The notes beneath the pieces are model-generated. The model saw nothing but the letters and a program-made list of their open reading frames with translations, ran no database searches and had not been told where the DNA came from. Below, piece by piece: positions 5,660-56,740 of a stretch of DNA of 64,000 nucleotides. The stretch lies in contig JACPMR010000012.1 of the NCBI GenBank assembly GCA_016185945.1, positions 62,001-126,000 on the forward strand, given 5' to 3'. The stretch's first letter is position 1. Each line of letters begins with the position of its first letter. The stretch is from Candidatus Woesearchaeota archaeon. Lineage in GTDB: Archaea > Nanobdellota > Nanobdellia > Woesearchaeales > GW2011-AR4. The translations under genes and the position numbers were made by a program.

Positions 5660-5807
5660 TTAACAATCAGGCGACCCAAATAATGTTTTACTATCATGGG
5701 TGCCCCGCAGTGATTGCTGCACTATAAACCAATGCTTGAGAGTGCCTCATCAAAAGCGGTTTACTTTAATTATGCTATGAGTCCAAAAGTCGCTCTATGT
5801 TTGTTAA
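5660..5807 (+). repeat. Modular intergenic hairpin element, type B, copy 1
   Basis: The ends are TTAACAA (5660-5666) and TTGTTAA (5801-5807), a perfect inverted repeat, followed inward by GCGAC pairing with GTCGC. Inside lie GGGTGCCCCGC, a hairpin GCACT...AGTGC around ATAAACC, and the type B signature AAAAGCGG-TTT-ACTTT...AAAGT-CGCTCT. The copy sits between convergent genes and slightly overlaps the 3' end of the 72-residue ORF. It lacks the central GCTCGG module seen in longer copies. Confidence 0.8.
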
Positions 5808-11410: not shown

Positions 11411-11578
11411 TTTCAATCCGCCTGCGGCGCATTTTACTGCGCGTCGGCATTCGGATGTGGAGGTTGCATTTTTTGTGCTCCTCCTCCGCGCCAATTTATT
11501 TGCCACAGTCGGGCAAACAGTCCTGAGCTGGGCTCCCATTTCACCTTTATAGATGTTGGGAAGCGACGATTTTTGAAT
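11411..11578 (+). repeat. Modular intergenic hairpin element, type A, copy 2
   Basis: It begins TTTCAATCC and ends ATTTTTGAA. The 5' hairpin is CGCC-TGC-GGCG. The central module is GCGCG-TCGGCATTC...GGAGG-TT-GCA...TGC-T-CCTCC...CGCGC. The type A end is GGGC...GTCCTGAGCTGGGCTCCCA...TTGGGAAGCGACG. It lies between the rhodanese and iscA-like genes, all co-directional on the minus strand. Confidence 0.85.
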
Positions 11579-13887: not shown

Positions 13888-14062
13888 TTTCAATCCGTCG
13901 CCTTCGGCGACATTGGTTACGCGCCTCGGCATTCAGATGTGGAGGCAGCATTCCTTTGTGCTACTCCTCGGCGCAAAATTCATTGTAACTGCCAGCGATA
14001 CGTTCCTGAGCTGGGTTCCCATATTGCCTATGCAGTGACTGGGAAGCGACGTTGATTGAAAA
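13888..14062 (+). repeat. Modular intergenic hairpin element, type A, copy 3
   Basis: The terminal inverted repeat is TTTCAATC...GATTGAAA. The 5' hairpin GTCGCC-TTC-GGCGAC can alternatively pair through CGTCGC with the 3' GCGACG. The central GCGCCTCGGCATTCAGATGTGG...CTCCTCGGCGC module is present, and the type A end is TTCCTGAGCTGGGTTCCCA...CTGGGAAGCGACG. It lies between sufS and the scaffold gene. Confidence 0.88.
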
Positions 14063-19604: not shown

Positions 19605-19756
19605 TTTTCAATCCGTTCGGGCTTCGCCCTCACAATATCTTCTGCTCGGCAAAAATTGTCTGCCACTAATTTTTGCCTCGCCAATTTATTACATTAAATC
19701 ATTAAAAGCGGTTTACTTTTATCACGCTGTGAATCTAAAAGTCGCTCTCGTTTTTG
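19605..19756 (+). repeat. Modular intergenic hairpin element, type B, copy 4
   Basis: It begins TTTTTCAATCC. The 5' hairpin is GGGC-TTC-GCCC. The central module GCTC-GGCAAAAATT...CTGCCACT-AATTTTTGCC-TCGCC has a perfect 10-bp stem. It ends with AAAAGCGG-TTT-ACTTTT...AAAAGT-CGCTCTCG. It lies between the HTH regulator and sufB. Confidence 0.85.
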
Positions 19757-21724: not shown

Positions 21725-21880
21725 TTTTCAATCCGTTGCTTCGCAACATATTCTTGTGCTCGGCGTTGCTGTCCTGCCACATCGCAACGCCTCGCCAATT
21801 TATTGCCACAGTCAGGCACACTTTCCTGAGCAGGGTTCCCACATCACTTTTGCTGATAGTGGGAAGCGACGTTTTTGTTG
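21725..21880 (+). repeat. Modular intergenic hairpin element, type A, copy 5
   Basis: It begins TTTTCAATCC. The 5' hairpin is GTTGC-TTC-GCAAC. The central stem GGCGTTGC...GCAACGCC lies between GCTC and TCGCC around a CCTGCCA loop. The type A end is TTTCCTGAGCAGGGTTCCCAC...GTGGGAAGCGACG. The 5' CGTTGCTT can also pair with the 3' AAGCGACG with one U-G pair. It lies between the kinase and deaminase genes. Confidence 0.87.
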
Positions 21881-30983: not shown

Positions 30984-31149
30984 TTTCAATCCGTCGTGCT
31001 TCGCACGACACTATCTTGGCGCCTCGGCATTCAGATGTGGAGGTTGCATTCCTTCGTGCTCCTCCTCGGCGCAAATTTATCGTATTAAACATTAAAAGCG
31101 GATTACTTTCTTAACCTTGTGAAATCACAAAGTCGCTCTCGGGATTGAA
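30984..31149 (+). repeat. Modular intergenic hairpin element, type B, copy 6
   Basis: The terminal inverted repeat is TTCAATCC...GGATTGAA. The 5' hairpin is GTCGTGC-TTC-GCACGAC. The central module GCGCCTCGGCATTCAGATGTGGAGG...CCTCCTCGGCGC is shared with type A copies. The type B end is AAAGCGG-ATT-ACTTT...AAAGT-CGCTCTCGGG. This copy shows that the 5' half of one type can join the 3' half of the other. It lies just upstream of ileS. Confidence 0.88.
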
Positions 31150-38108: not shown

Positions 38109-38198
38109 GGGGCTGTGGTGTAGCTTGGTATCATTGGCCCTTGGGGCAGCTTATGCTCTGGTATGGGTCCGACCTGAGTTCGAATCTCAGCAGCCCCA
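38109..38198 (+). tRNA. tRNA-Pro(GGG) with 17-nt anticodon-loop intron
   Basis: The acceptor GGGGCTG/CAGCCCC plus A73, the D-arm GTGT...TCAT with GG, the anticodon stem GGCCC/GGGTC and the T-arm CTGAG-TTCGAAT-CTCAG are all complete. The loop reads TTGGGG and then the intron CAGCTTATGCTCTGGTA before the last loop base, placing the intron after position 37, the canonical archaeal site. CCA is not encoded. A TTTAAATAA box centred near 38081 would place transcription start within two bases of the mature 5' end. Confidence 0.92.
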
Positions 38199-38199
38199 C

Positions 38200-40364: not shown

Positions 40365-40540
40365 ATTTCAATCCGTCGCCTTCGGCGACATTAGTTACGC
40401 GCCTCGGCATTCAACTATAGAGGTTGCATTCCTTTGTGCTCCTCCTCGGCGCCTATCTATTTAATAATTTCAGGCAAACTTTCCTGAGCTGGGTTCCCAT
40501 ATCTTGCTTGCTGATATTGGGAAGCGACGTTGTTTGAAAT
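40365..40540 (+). repeat. Modular intergenic hairpin element, type A, copy 7
   Basis: The terminal inverted repeat is ATTTCAA...TTGAAAT. The 5' hairpin is GTCGCC-TTC-GGCGAC. The central module GCGCCTCGGCATTCAACTATAGAGG...CCTCCTCGGCGC keeps its pairing except for one end base. The type A end has CAGG...CCTGAGCTGGGTTCCCATATC...GATATTGGGAAGCGACG. It lies between two plus-strand genes, so here the plus-strand form is transcribed. Confidence 0.88.
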
Positions 40541-47892: not shown

Positions 47893-48050
47893 ATTCAATC
47901 CGTCGCTTCGCGACAATATTTACTGCTCGCTCCTCACTTCCCCGCCAATCGTTCGGAGCTCGCCTATTTATTGAAATAGTCAGGCTTACTGTCCTGAGCT
48001 GGGCTCCTTTTCCACCTTTAGAGATGCTGGGAAGCGACGTGCTTGATTAA
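47893..48050 (+). repeat. Modular intergenic hairpin element, type A, copy 8
   Basis: It begins ATTCAATCC. The 5' hairpin is GTCGC-TTC-GCGAC, with CGTCGCTT also complementary to the 3' AAGCGACG (8 bp). The central stem GCTCC...GGAGC lies between CTC and TCGCC around CCGCCA. The type A end is CTGTCCTGAGCTGGGCTCC...CTGGGAAGCGACG. It lies between the HD gene and the YkgJ-like gene. Confidence 0.85.
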
Positions 48051-51783: not shown

Positions 51784-52040
51784 CTTCAATCCGAAAATTC
51801 GCTTTGCGAATTTTCAATAGTTACAGCTCGGCTTTCGCTTCCCTGCCAGTGACATGCGAGGCTCGCGAAGAGACTCGCTCGCCAGTCACCCGCTCAAGCC
51901 TCGCCTATTAATTCAATGAATTCAGGCGTACTTCCCTGAGCTGGGTTCCCATCAACGACAAAGTTCGTTGACACCTTGTGCAAGTGGGATTTGCAATCCC
52001 ACGGACTTTGCAGATGCTGGGAAGCGAATATTTTTTGAAA
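51784..52040 (+). repeat. Modular intergenic hairpin element, type A with extra modules, copy 9
   Basis: This is the longest copy. The 5' hairpin is GAAAATTCGC-TTT-GCGAATTTTC. Its CGCTT side can pair with a 3' end that has changed in step (AAGCGAATATT instead of AAGCGACG). The central stem GGCTT...AAGCC encloses an extra hairpin GTGACATGCGAG...CTCGC...GTCAC. Within the type A end are inserted CAACGACAAAGTTCGTTGACACC and GTGGGAT-TTGCA-ATCCCAC. It lies between grpE and dnaK. Confidence 0.88.
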
Positions 52041-52073
52041 TTTTTTATAAATTTGTTATTATTGATCTTTGTT

Positions 52074-52571
52074 TTATTTCCCGCTAATCTTTACTTTGCT
52101 GTGCCTCAAAACCTTGTCATTGAGCATATACCCTTTCTGGAATTCCTCCAGAATTGTTTCTTCGGGCTTGTCTGATTCCTCTTTCATCAAAACCTCGTGC
52201 TTGTATGGGTCGAATTTTTCTCCAGTTGCTTTTATCGGCTTCAAGCCTTCTGCCTCAAGCACAGAGTAAAGCTGCGCATAAATGATTTTGATGCCTTCAA
52301 TGAATTTTTCTTTTTCTGTTGTGTTTTTTAACGCTATTTCAAAGCTATCAAGCACAGGCAAAAGCTGTGCAATCACATCAGCATGAGCAAATTTTACAAA
52401 CTCTGTTTTTTCCTTGTCAACCCTCTTTTTGTAATTCTCAAACTCTGCCTGAAGTCTTTTCAAAGTGTCTGTCAACTCTTCGATTTTTTGATTTTTTTCT
52501 TCGAGCTGTTTTTTTAATGAATCTTTCTCGTCTGTTTTTTTCTCTTCCTTCGCTTCTTTTTTCGGTTCCAT
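52074..52571 (-). CDS. grpE: GrpE nucleotide-exchange factor
   Basis: The 165-residue protein has a long N-terminal coiled coil (about 15-65, with EELTDTLKRLQAEFENYKKRVDKEK). The GrpE head domain follows, with LLPVLDSFEIALKN, YAQLYSVLEAEGLKPI, GEKFDPYKHEVLMKEES and EEFQKGYMLNDKVLRHSKVKIS. It releases ADP from DnaK. It is 1 nt from the upstream HEYIH gene. Confidence 0.95.
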   Translation of the reverse strand: MEPKKEAKEEKKTDEKDSLKKQLEEKNQKIEELTDTLKRLQAEFENYKKRVDKEKTEFVKFAHADVIAQLLPVLDSFEIALKNTTEKEKFIEGIKIIYAQLYSVLEAEGLKPIKATGEKFDPYKHEVLMKEESDKPEETILEEFQKGYMLNDKVLRHSKVKISGK

Positions 52572-52572
52572 T

Positions 52573-53076
52573 TTAGTTTATGTAATTAATGTTCTTTTTG
52601 TCAATTCCCATAACAAAATCAATGTTTATGTCAGTCGGCGGCTGGAAGCCGGCAACCGGATAAGTCAGATTAGGCATGAATTTTTGCATATTTGTAGTTA
52701 ACTGGGTTATTGTATGCTCTTCGCCAAAGTAATGCCTGCTGATTTCATAGACAAGCTGTCTTGTCTGGGCTTCGTCAAGAGAGCCGATTGAATGGATGTA
52801 TTCATGCAATATTATATGGAAAAGATAAAAATTATACAATGAAGGGTTTGTCCGGAATAATCTTGCCAATGGCTTTTTGTTGATGATTATTGTGTTGGCA
52901 TCCAATGAATAAAACGCCCCTATAAAGCCCCTGTCATGCATGCCCAAATCCGTCAAGCCGACCATCAGCCCAGCTTGCTCCAAGCCAAGATATTCTCTGA
53001 CAATCTCTTTCACTATTTCAAATATGTCGCTGATTGTATTTGCGTTTTTGATACTTTTTTCGTGATTCATTTTCAA
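52573..53076 (-). CDS. Putative zinc metallopeptidase-like protein (HExxH)
   Basis: The 167-residue protein contains HIILHEYIHSIGSLDEAQTRQLVYEISRHYFG, with the HEYIH form of the HExxH zinc motif and a possible third ligand downstream. It lacks a signal peptide. It may be a small intracellular protease or an inactive relative; it heads the grpE-dnaK series, suggesting a proteostasis role. Confidence 0.75.
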   Translation of the reverse strand: MKMNHEKSIKNANTISDIFEIVKEIVREYLGLEQAGLMVGLTDLGMHDRGFIGAFYSLDANTIIINKKPLARLFRTNPSLYNFYLFHIILHEYIHSIGSLDEAQTRQLVYEISRHYFGEEHTITQLTTNMQKFMPNLTYPVAGFQPPTDINIDFVMGIDKKNINYIN

Positions 53077-53154
53077 AAAACCACCAAATCTCTTGTTGAG
53101 TTTAAATCAACGAAATGTAGGTAAAACCAACTAATATATAAAGTTTTCGGCAAA

Positions 53155-53187
53155 AGTTTATATATAAGGACTCTTAGAGAGTGCTTA
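53155..53187 (+). promoter_or_regulatory. Leaderless promoter with inverted repeat
   Basis: TTTATATATAAG is centred near 53161, 26 nt before the ATG at 53187. ACTCT-TAG-AGAGT lies between box and start and may be an operator for the encoded HTH protein. A second TATA-like box lies at 53129-53141. Confidence 0.55.
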
Positions 53188-53594
53188 TGGTATTCATAAG
53201 GCAGAGAATAACCATTGTGCACATAAGGAAGCCCTCAGAGCATAATGTGAATCAGGAACTGCAATGGCTGGGTTCATCTCTTGGGTTATTTAACTTAAGG
53301 GATAAGGACAAAAGCACTTTTAGGTTATTTATAGAACTATTGAAGTCAGCCAAAGCAGACAAGTCATTGACTAGCGATGAGCTTGCTGCAAGATTAGCGT
53401 TATCAAGAGGCACAATAATCCACCATATAAATAAGCTTATGGAATCTGGCTTGGTAATTCATGAAGGCAACACCTATATCTTAAGGGTCGATAATCTTAA
53501 AGCGCTGATTGATGAGGTTGAGAAAGATATCAAAAGAGCATGCGAGGACTTAAAAGAAGTTGCAAAGGAGATTGACAGTAGGTTGGGGTTGTGA
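53187..53594 (+). CDS. Winged-helix (ArsR-like) transcription regulator
   Basis: The product is about 135 residues from the ATG at 53187, favoured by promoter spacing. The winged HTH is KSLTSDELAARLALSRGTIIHHINKLMESGLVIHEGNTYILR (about 65-110), followed by a helical dimerisation tail (EVEKDIKRACEDLKEVAKEID). It is divergent from the grpE-dnaK group. By analogy with archaeal heat-shock repressors it may control those genes, but that is inference from position. Confidence 0.85.
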   Translation: MVFIRQRITIVHIRKPSEHNVNQELQWLGSSLGLFNLRDKDKSTFRLFIELLKSAKADKSLTSDELAARLALSRGTIIHHINKLMESGLVIHEGNTYILRVDNLKALIDEVEKDIKRACEDLKEVAKEIDSRLGL

Positions 53595-53599
53595 TTAAA

Positions 53600-54655
53600 C
53601 TACGCAGATTGTTTATATGGCACACTATAAGTCGGATCATTATAACGAATTCTCAATGCCCTAATGATTCTTGGTACTAATTTGTCAATGTTTTCAATAG
53701 CAACTTGAACCAGATTTAATGTTGTACTAACCTTTTGTGCTATGCTATCTATGCCTTTGTACCCTTTACCAATTGCTTTGTAAACACGACTTGCTAATGA
53801 TAAAGTCAATGATGTTCCTTTCAAACTAGTACTCCTTTTTATACTGACTCCTCTTTCTTTCGCATAAGAGCAAAGTACATAGGGAGGAATATCTGCAAAA
53901 TATGCTGCATCGGGAATGCTCATGCCTAATCTATATATTTTTAGTCCAATTTTTTTCTGTTCCGTTGAAAACTTATGTACAACTCTGCTTCCAGATGGGG
54001 GTTCAAGTCCGACGGATTTAAGTATGTATCCAACCACTGTTGCACTCATGCCTAAAGGTTTGCCTAATTCTGCCAACGACATTTTTACTCCCTTATTTTT
54101 CGCAGTTTCATATCTTTGGAATAATATAATGCAATCCCTTATTGAATACCTCACAAATTTTTGTGTCCTCGCATATTGAACTGCTTTCTGAACAGCCCAT
54201 TCTTTGCTGTCTGCCAATTTCATAAGTTCGGCTTCAAGAGGGCTTATTTGTCTTTGAGCATTTCTTAATTCAATCCTTTGTTGCCTCTCTGCCGCTTTGC
54301 GCTCTGCACTTTTCTTAAGCCAAAGCCCATACTTATCACTTGCAATCATATATTGACGTGCTCTTGCTCGAGTAACATTCCCTGCTTTGGCTATCTCCTC
54401 TTGAGTTGCGCCTTCTCGTATTTTGGCATTCATTCCAGGATATCCGACAGACAAATCACGAGGCAATTCTATTCCTTCTTCATTACAAACCCTTTCCAGT
54501 ATTCCTGGCTTTAATTGATTGTCCATGTAAAAAGCCGCGAAATAATCTACACCCTTAGCAAATGCCTTACGAATCTCTTTGACTATTGCTTTAATTTCCA
54601 TATCTGTTAATCTTTTGCCATGATATGAACCAACTATAATTTCTAGTATAGACAT
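53600..54655 (-). CDS. Multi-HTH DNA-binding protein, lineage-specific
   Basis: The 351-residue basic protein has at least three helix-turn-helix-like segments: GATQEEIAKAGNVTRARARQYM (about 80), KMSLAELGKPLGMSATVVGYIL (about 190) and MSIPDAAYFADIPPYVLCSY (about 245). Such layouts occur in sigma-like or replication/partition proteins. No catalytic domain is visible. Its promoter carries a TATA near 54690. It converges on the regulator gene with a 5-nt gap. Confidence 0.65.
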   Translation of the reverse strand: MSILEIIVGSYHGKRLTDMEIKAIVKEIRKAFAKGVDYFAAFYMDNQLKPGILERVCNEEGIELPRDLSVGYPGMNAKIREGATQEEIAKAGNVTRARARQYMIASDKYGLWLKKSAERKAAERQQRIELRNAQRQISPLEAELMKLADSKEWAVQKAVQYARTQKFVRYSIRDCIILFQRYETAKNKGVKMSLAELGKPLGMSATVVGYILKSVGLEPPSGSRVVHKFSTEQKKIGLKIYRLGMSIPDAAYFADIPPYVLCSYAKERGVSIKRSTSLKGTSLTLSLASRVYKAIGKGYKGIDSIAQKVSTTLNLVQVAIENIDKLVPRIIRALRIRYNDPTYSVPYKQSA

Positions 54656-54781
54656 ATCTTGTGCCTATACGTCCTCTTTTATAAATATTACCATTATAAA
54701 GTGGTATATGTACGTAAATTCTAAATTTTAAAAGTAAGAATAGTAGTAAATTATAAATACCAGTATTCAAAGTTTTAAGCC

Positions 54782-56260
54782 ATGAAAAAAGGCGCTTTGA
54801 TTCTGGCGTTTTTGTTAATAATGCCAATTGCTCTTGCAGACATTACAATAATAACCGACCAAAACATATATAATCTTGGCAATAAAATCAAAGCATCCGC
54901 TTCTATTATACAAAGCGAAAATTTCGAAGGATTGTTCAAATTGACGATTTCCTGCGACAATTACAATCTGCAGTATTTCCTAACTCCTATTAGTTTGGAG
55001 CCGAATTTCAGGACAGCAGTCAATGTGCCTGAATTAGTGGCATCCTCTTCAATGCTTGGAAACTGCACAATTATTGGGGAATTGCTGACAAATGACAATC
55101 TACTGGTTGAGAATAGGCAGTCAAATGCTTTCAGCATTACAAGACAACTTGCAGTTCTGCCTGTGAAAAGCAAAATCACTGCCTTGCCAGACGAGACATT
55201 GCAGATTAATGGCGTGGTCAACGAGGCATTCGGCAACAATGTGCTAAAAACAGCGATGAAAATCGCCATGGACAATAACACATACACAACAGACGCAATC
55301 AATGGAAAGTTCAACATGACTCTGGGGCTGCAAGCAAACATAAAGTCAGGAAGGCACACATTGGAGATAAGCGCTTATGACACCAAAAACAATTTTGGCT
55401 CTGCTTTAATTGAATTGGAAATAACAGCAATTCCGACATACATAAAGATAGATATAAGCGGAGCCCAATTGCAGCCAGGCTACAAAGTTGAGATTGTTTC
55501 TTCCCTATACGATCAGGCAGATGACTTGATAAATGCTTCTTTGGATCTTGAATTAACTTCACCAAGCAAAAGCAAGGTATTCCTAAAGGCGGTGCAGAGC
55601 GATGAACAGATTGGGTATGAGTTCAGCCAGTATGCTGAACCAGGGCTTTATACCCTAATCAGCTCTTACAAAAACCTTCTGGCACAATCAACAATAAACA
55701 TATCAACTATAAGGGGGGTAAAAATAAGATATGACAATGAAGTTGTCTTGGTTGAAAACATAGGCAATGTGATTTTTGAAGATGAGCTGACTTTTATTCT
55801 GGAAAGTGAATCAAAAAAATACCCGATAACAAAGAAAGTCAAGGTTGAACCAGGCAAGGCAATAAGCATTGACTTGTCAAAGGAAGTGCCTTTCGGCATT
55901 TACGACGTCGTGCTCCCGGTAAAAGAAGGCTTGGAGCCATTAAAGGAAGAGATAGATGAAAAAATCAAAAATCTCACAGAGTCTGCCATTCAAAAGCTGG
56001 CAGCTGAAAAAGAAAAATTACTGGCAAAAGACGTCACGATACATGATGACAGGCCTCTTTATAAAAAATTCGCAAGCAGCTTTTCTTCAATCAGTAGCGG
56101 TTTAATAGGTTCTGATGGCATACTTACAAAGAATCCCTTGATTGCGCCGATAATCCTGGTTGTTATATTGCTGGCGGTAGTATTCCGCTATGGAAGAAGG
56201 CCGATAATGAGGTTGATAAAAGGCAAAAAAGACGATGAGAATAAGGAAAATGAGGCTTAG
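54782..56260 (+). CDS. Membrane-anchored Ig-like surface protein
   Basis: The 492-residue protein has a signal peptide (MKKGALILAFLLIMPIALA). Four or so beta-sandwich repeats follow, with macroglobulin/Ig-like phrases (TIITDQNIYNLGNKIKASASI, YIKIDISGAQLQPGYKVEIV), then a helical stalk (about 380-425), and one transmembrane helix near 455 with a basic, acidic-tailed cytoplasmic end. It probably belongs to the cell envelope. Its stop overlaps the end of the zinc-ribbon gene on the other strand. Confidence 0.8.
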   Translation: MKKGALILAFLLIMPIALADITIITDQNIYNLGNKIKASASIIQSENFEGLFKLTISCDNYNLQYFLTPISLEPNFRTAVNVPELVASSSMLGNCTIIGELLTNDNLLVENRQSNAFSITRQLAVLPVKSKITALPDETLQINGVVNEAFGNNVLKTAMKIAMDNNTYTTDAINGKFNMTLGLQANIKSGRHTLEISAYDTKNNFGSALIELEITAIPTYIKIDISGAQLQPGYKVEIVSSLYDQADDLINASLDLELTSPSKSKVFLKAVQSDEQIGYEFSQYAEPGLYTLISSYKNLLAQSTINISTIRGVKIRYDNEVVLVENIGNVIFEDELTFILESESKKYPITKKVKVEPGKAISIDLSKEVPFGIYDVVLPVKEGLEPLKEEIDEKIKNLTESAIQKLAAEKEKLLAKDVTIHDDRPLYKKFASSFSSISSGLIGSDGILTKNPLIAPIILVVILLAVVFRYGRRPIMRLIKGKKDDENKENEA

Positions 56261-56436
56261 CTTCTTCTTTTTCTTTCTTCATCCATTGCTCCAAATTCAC
56301 CAAAGGTTTCATTAAGAAAGTCCTGCGCTGTTTTCAGCAAGCCGACAGAACCCTCTTTCGAGCAATAAGGGCACCTAGGCGGGATTTTTTCTTTTCTGAA
56401 CTTGAATCCGCAACTGCGACATTCCAAATCAATCAT
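56257..56436 (-). CDS. Small zinc-ribbon protein
   Basis: The 59-residue ORF is just below the track cutoff. MIDLECRSCGFKF and PPRCPYCSKEGSVGLL give a CxxC...CxxC ribbon, and the C-terminus is charged. A ribbon of this form resembles FmdB or rubredoxin-like regulatory proteins. It overlaps the 3' end of the surface-protein gene by 4 nt. A type B element lies upstream of it. Confidence 0.78.
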   Translation of the reverse strand: MIDLECRSCGFKFRKEKIPPRCPYCSKEGSVGLLKTAQDFLNETFGEFGAMDEERKRRS

Positions 56437-56550
56437 AACACTACCTTGTAGTAAGAAGTATATAAATTTTGTGGGAAAATCAGTCAGAAAATCTAAAAAA
56501 CAATAAAATTATTTTCCAATAACGAGGCTTCCTAAAAACAATAAATTAAT

Positions 56551-56740
56551 TTTTTCAATCACGTGGGCTTCCCACAACGGCAAAGTCCGTTGACACCTTG
56601 TGGGTTTCGCTTCGCTCAAGCCCACATGAGGGAGCCACAGCCTCTTCTGTCTGCACTTGATTGTTGAAGTTTATAGTGCCTTAATAAAAAGCGGTTCACT
56701 TTCTGCACGTATACGGCAAAAAGTCGCTCTCGGGATTGAA
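56551..56740 (+). repeat. Modular intergenic hairpin element, type B, copy 10
   Basis: The terminal repeat is TTCAATC...GGATTGAA. The 5' hairpin is GTGGG-CTT-CCCAC. Inside is CAACGGCAAAGTCCGTTGACACCTTGTG, matching the insert of copy 9 with a compensatory change. A hairpin GCACT...AGTGC and the type B end AAAAGCGG-TTC-ACTTT...AAAGT-CGCTCTCGGG follow. It lies between the zinc-ribbon and L15e genes. Confidence 0.87.

Follow-up and report, generated by a model that had tools for sequence, protein, structure and literature searches.

Terminal hairpin modules appear to be exchanged among short intergenic elements of a Woesearchaeota genome

The Woesearchaeota (DPANN) genome G000 (1.5 Mb, 24 contigs) and its genus contain short intergenic elements, which in G000 are built from five terminal hairpin modules. 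Exchange of these modules among elements is well supported, because one insert recurs in different elements, the modules occur in several pairings, the two modules of an element are unlinked in their divergence, and a sister genome carries different right ends. We regard the elements as probably non-autonomous and MITE/PATE-like, composed of interchangeable hairpins, with ends that are exchanged in place and with one end type, L, lying next to promoters. This reading rests on the anatomy of the elements, their pairing rules, stem covariation, unlinked modules, presence and absence between species, differing ends at orthologous sites and the spacing from L to start codons. From these data we infer transposition by a trans-acting enzyme, a mechanism of exchange and a promoter function.

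The window, the whole stretch of 64,000 nucleotides in which the elements were noticed, is C8:62001-126000 of G000. Alignment of the window copies yielded two 3' modules, R1 (type A) and R2 (type B), and models of these modules gave about 55 and about 80 strong matches in G000, respectively. The G000 DNA analysed comprised the stretches around module matches, contig C3 and the window; part of it was thus chosen because of module matches, and the 127 elements found are a lower bound for the genome. Inspection of all copies on contig C3 showed that the elements are two-ended. They measure 120-170 bp (the 127 elements mostly 120-190 bp), and their termini (TTCAATC/GATTGAA) are inverted, strong in L and D and weaker in A, B and C.

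Genome-wide clustering of the hairpins with module profiles, which the first-pass annotation had proposed as a check, resolved the 127 elements into five terminal modules (L, A, B, C and D) and seven pairings: L-A (40), L-B (28), C-B (17), D-B (16), A-B (15), C-D (8) and C-A (3). Pairs of identical ends (L-L, C-C, A-A, B-B, D-D) were absent among these 127 elements, with about 30 expected at random pairing. The left end is usually L, which consists of TTCAATCCG, a small hairpin and then a second hairpin (GCGCCTCGGC...GGCGC or GCTCGGC...GCCTCGC). Elements may also begin with C (GGCGACCCA...TGGGTGCCCCGC) or with A or D in reverse complement; at the right end stands A, B or D. Read as right ends on C3, modules A, B, C and D have one plan, in which 4 bulged nucleotides on the 5' side set off the main stem from a short foot stem. 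D is a relative of A, with a homologous hairpin. A central hairpin is often present between the two terminal modules. At six places in G000 (C3:35973, 56510, 74735, 110622, 177507 and C9:187562), a second, shorter L hairpin and a conserved AT-rich spacer (AAAAATTTTGATATTAACTTATTA) precede the full L; this arrangement may have been left by an older element, or it may be L in an extended form.

The window contains the following elements and nested features:

5666-5798, plus strand: C-B element, with hairpin C on the left and B on the right, from profile matches
11411-11577, plus strand: L-A element
13888-14060, plus strand: L-A element upstream of a NifU-like gene, containing GCGCCTCGGCATTCAGATGTGG at 13921
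19606-19756, plus strand: L-B element
21726-21876, plus strand: L-A element
30984-31147, plus strand: L-B element containing GCGCCTCGGCATTCAGATGTGG at 31019; a class I aminoacyl-tRNA synthetase gene lies downstream
40366-40538, plus strand: L-A element
47894-48046, plus strand: L-A element in the spacer ahead of the gene that comes before dnaJ
51785-52038, plus strand: L-A element in the grpE-dnaK spacer; its A loop carries insert I and its L module hairpin E
51847-51884, plus strand: nested hairpin E (CAGTGACATGCGAG..) within the L module
51953-52012, plus strand: insert I, carried in the A apical loop
56554-56738, plus strand: D-B element, its left end a reverse-complemented D whose loop holds insert I
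56575-56607, plus strand: shorter form of insert I, carried in the D apical loop
62558-62674, minus strand: A-B element, weaker

The window also holds a tRNA with an unresolved anticodon (38109-38199, ARAGORN), possibly an intron-bearing or odd tRNA. Elsewhere, tRNA-like genes beside elements (L246 in G005; C3:56780-56900 and C9:187700-187850 in G000) have apparent introns or extra internal sequence that differ between these two species. At 53600-54655 on the minus strand, a 351-aa protein gives a weak match to sigma70 region 4 (helix-turn-helix), with no family above cut-off.

It had been claimed from the sequence of the window that elements of types A and B share hairpin segments and appear to evolve by swapping them. 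Our results support this, and both segments lie, to within a few bases, at the places given. The segments CAACGACAAAGTTCGTTGACACCTTGTG at 51953-51980 and CAACGGCAAAGTCCGTTGACACCTTGTG at 56575-56602 are the sole matches at three mismatches or fewer, with 0 expected from 100 shuffles, and the central module GCGCCTCGGCATTCAGATGTGG, common to both types, is found exactly at 13921 (type A) and 31019 (type B), again with 0 expected; a further copy with 2 mismatches lies at 11439. The shared segments are not unique coincidences. The 28-mer is the left part of insert I, which is present at 11 places in the genome: six times in the A loop, once inverted in the A loop, twice in D loops (including the one at 56575), once in the B loop and once elsewhere. 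Likewise, the GCGCCTCGGC hairpin, which is the second hairpin of long L, has A as its partner 32 times and B five times.

The compensatory change from A-T to G-C that had been reported in the insert stem is confirmed across the genome, the sixth pair being A-T in 6 and G-C in 5 of the 11 copies. The first pair is C-G in ten copies and T-A in the remaining one, and no pair is broken. The description of the second carrier as a type B copy at 56551 needs correction in one half: the right half is module B as in type B copies, but the left end is the reverse complement of D. The shared insert therefore occupies the apical loops of two homologous hairpins, A and D. Nesting is not confined to insert I. 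Palindrome E was found in L, in C, in B and within itself. Further nested palindromes of the form CGAAAATC...GATTTTCG occur in G000 at C1:154216-154614, C5:76970-77214 and C8:54921-55108, in B loops or within elements, and sometimes contain E, making palindromes within palindromes.

The main stems are almost completely paired. Watson-Crick pairs make up 377/386 of the main-stem cells in A, 488/495 in B and 248/252 in L (97-99%), and both sides have changed in 25, 76 and 17 cells, respectively. In slid controls at most 228/386 (A), 274/495 (B) and 135/252 (L) cells were paired, with three double changes or fewer, and shuffled controls never attained the observed values. G-T and A-C mispairs, which could distinguish RNA from DNA folding, are too few in the stems to favour RNA, single-stranded DNA or a cruciform as the selected form. 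The loops are not conserved.

In L-A, L-B, D-B, A-B and C-B elements, how far one module has diverged is not correlated with the divergence of its partner (r -0.25 to 0.11, all p > 0.13), while odd and even alignment columns of the same module, used as a within-module control in the Mantel comparison, are correlated (r 0.33 to 0.79, p < 0.03). Subtypes are not wholly shuffled: with A we counted 32 long and 8 short L, and with B 5 long and 23 short L.

We then compared sites with relatives, of which G005 is the nearest to G000 on the DnaK tree, with modest support. Between grpE and dnaK, the L-A element with I and E of G000 corresponds to L-C in G005, and upstream of dnaJ, L-A in G000 corresponds to L-B in G005, as also in G009 and G018. 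Further differences are L-A versus L-B at C3:110622, L-A versus C-B at C3:56510, long L-A with I versus short L-A at C3:209433, and B-A versus L-B at C11:61758 (G000 named first). At C9:187390 and C11:61758 the two genomes differ in orientation or in both modules. Other shared sites have kept their type, L-B at five and C-B at one; as the G005 regions were picked through B-module matches, these comparisons do not yield a frequency of exchange. Where the same L end is joined to another right end at orthologous sites, hairpins appear to have been replaced in place.

Presence also varies between species. The aminoacyl-tRNA synthetase site (window 30984) is filled in G000 only; no element is present there in G001, G005, G010, G016 and G017, the relatives whose spacer is comparably short. 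At the pdhA-pdhB junction, G000 has no element (stop-AAA-ATG, C3:208327-208335), whereas in G005 a stretch of about 240 bp at this place contains a B-L element, which splits the operon (L259:1160-1404). The same junction holds A+I-L in G003, B-L in G001, a B element with E in G013 and L-L in G018, and is as short as in G000 in G004, G012 and G014. Carriers and empty sites are scattered on the DnaK tree, which is weakly supported. The DNA around compared sites is about 70-84% identical, and at pdhA-pdhB the insertion extends past the termini into AT-rich flanks; with flanks this diverged, exact insertion boundaries and target duplications cannot be set from empty sites. Of 9 G005 elements on contiguous G000 DNA, 7 lie at junctions where G000 also has an element or module, compared to about 12% of junctions overall (p ~1e-5), a base rate that treats junctions as equivalent and so flatters the test.

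The modules have different distributions in the genus. With the A model we counted 69 matches in G000, 16 in G003 and no more than four in any other member of the genus, and module B is present in 17 of 20 genomes with 2 to 82 copies. Among named genomes, all exact matches to the type A 3' module are in Woesearchaeota. Viral contigs gave no exact match to it, and viral carriers were set aside.

Element orientation follows the genes, 29 versus 3 in tandem-gene spacers (p 2.6e-6), and the downstream genes are unrelated to each other. For 46 of 66 L ends an ATG-started frame lies within 110 nt, and more than half of these 46 are at 29-40 nt; the A, B, C and D ends show no clustering of start-codon distance. 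In genes free of elements, positions -36 to -33 relative to the start codon are A-rich and positions -31 to -22 form a T-then-A box; we read these as the BRE and TATA of leaderless promoters. Read in the direction of the downstream gene, the L end finishes in GGATTGAA; a TAAA-rich box follows closely, and the start codon is about 35 bp away. Together with its conserved A-WWW-TAAA, this end reproduces the geometry of element-free promoters. The L end may thus be considered promoter-proximal, and this geometry suggests promoter activity.

These data favour the following scheme. Two different terminal hairpin modules face outward, each with a TTCAATC-like terminus, and smaller palindromes (I, E and others) can nest in their loops. 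New copies would insert at gene junctions, and single hairpins would later be replaced by hairpins of other copies, such that a site with L-A in one species has L-B or L-C in the sister species. Dispersed copies might exchange hairpins by recombining or by template switching; alternatively, one element might insert into another and the old half then be lost. With the L end promoter-proximal, an insertion would part the genes yet leave or bring a core promoter for the downstream gene. A bolder version, which we find possible though doubtful, takes the elements as a mobile promoter-boundary system of DPANN made of selfish single hairpins, in which end type A would spread by converting resident ends, by way of an undescribed enzyme or a recombination route, while operons are split and promoters re-set.

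Whole elements might instead insert independently at favoured junctions, without exchange inside existing elements. The interspersion of carriers with empty sites on the DnaK tree would fit such turnover, as would the limits that promoters set on possible positions and the sites C9:187390 and C11:61758, where orientation or both modules differ. It is nevertheless unlikely, since the two modules of an element have no shared history, most module combinations exist, and at dnaK, dnaJ and C3:110622 the place and orientation of L are kept and the right end differs. Replication template switching in palindromes could also produce stem compensation and module sharing as by-products, without any present transposition. 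The scarcity of mispaired intermediates despite two-sided changes and the nesting of palindromes in loops point in this direction, but spread to well over 100 sites, a genus-wide module inventory and the expansion of A in one species are left unexplained, and we give this explanation very little credence.

It seems improbable to us that the elements are REP/REPINs or IS200/IS605-derived PATEs that a Y1 HUH transposase mobilises through their single-stranded hairpins. The near-terminal palindromes, conserved terminal oligonucleotide and nested small repeats do match Haloquadratum PATEs and SMR-A, and the foot stem with its 4-nt 5' bulge is common to A, B, C and D. However, the termini are inverted, unlike IS605 ends. 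Our search for mobilisers covered Y1 and TnpB. No Y1 was found in G000, nor in G005, G009, G010 and G013, these five genomes holding 25-82 B copies; Y1 is present in 8 of 20 genus genomes without tracking copy number, and TnpB exceeds the family cut-off in 2 of 20. Around the Y1 and TnpB genes examined, module profiles gave nothing above chance, and neither is supported as a mobiliser. A replication-strand bias, as in IS608-type single-stranded DNA transposition, was rejected: there are seeming orientation domains, but GC skew follows the gene strand and the elements follow genes. Fixed orientation to genes, a constant start-codon distance and strong covariation would also be found in functionally conserved cis-acting RNAs (5' leaders, attenuators or terminators) with fast-diverging hairpins. 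We hold this to be very improbable, as Rfam covariance models gave no match above gathering score in the window, so that a known RNA family was discarded, presence varies at one gene between related species, the downstream genes are unrelated and the loops are not conserved. Moreover, L ends lie upstream of the promoter-like box, which places the element outside the leaderless transcript of the downstream gene.

We therefore return to MITE/PATE-like elements with exchangeable hairpins, which can be set beside known systems. As MITEs are, they are short, high-copy, non-coding, intergenic and folded, with terminal inverted repeats. With the PATEs and SMR-A of Haloquadratum walsbyi, which relate to IS605-type ends and have no terminal inverted repeats (PMC3119063), they share an archaeal host, small size, the lack of a transposase gene, near-terminal palindromes, a conserved terminal oligonucleotide, nested small mobile repeats and heterogeneous copies. 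They differ from PATEs in their short inverted-repeat termini, a genome in which no IS605 enzyme was found, ends drawn from a hairpin set with pairing rules, and L beside promoters. Correia and other promoter-bearing MITEs (PMC10969869) are likewise short, non-autonomous and upstream of genes and can supply promoters, a role that we only infer in G000; however, they have uniform inverted-repeat ends and bacterial sigma70 promoters, and the G000 elements have modular ends and a BRE/TATA-like archaeal context at one end type only. REPs with GTAG or CGTC tags and REPINs (PMC3733652, PMC8049555) are also many-copy short palindromes, sometimes hetero- or hybrid dimers, but their units measure 20-40 bp and bear a 4-base tag, with a RAYT accompanying the GTAG types. 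The G000 elements are multi-hairpin, 120-170 bp long and end in the 7-base TTCAATC, with no RAYT in the genome; CGTC stands beside some L and A hairpins and not regularly beside B, C or D.

Modular repeats are already known from the BOX elements of Streptococcus (boxA, boxB and boxC, with boxD, boxE and boxF in S. suis), in which mainly the number of internal boxB units varies between fixed end pairs (PMC3049150). Compared by modular plan, BOX elements are likewise intergenic, MITE-like, modular and folded. In G000 the end modules themselves appear to recombine, and it is terminal-hairpin exchange with pairing rules that sets these elements apart. The literature searched contained no account of elements like these in Woesearchaeota, and no paper on MITEs in Woesearchaeota or on REPs in DPANN. 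The differing ends at orthologous sites of sister species offer a way to study how non-autonomous elements gain new ends, and the link of one end type to promoter starts suggests a possible route by which streamlined archaeal genomes may break operons and rewire expression.
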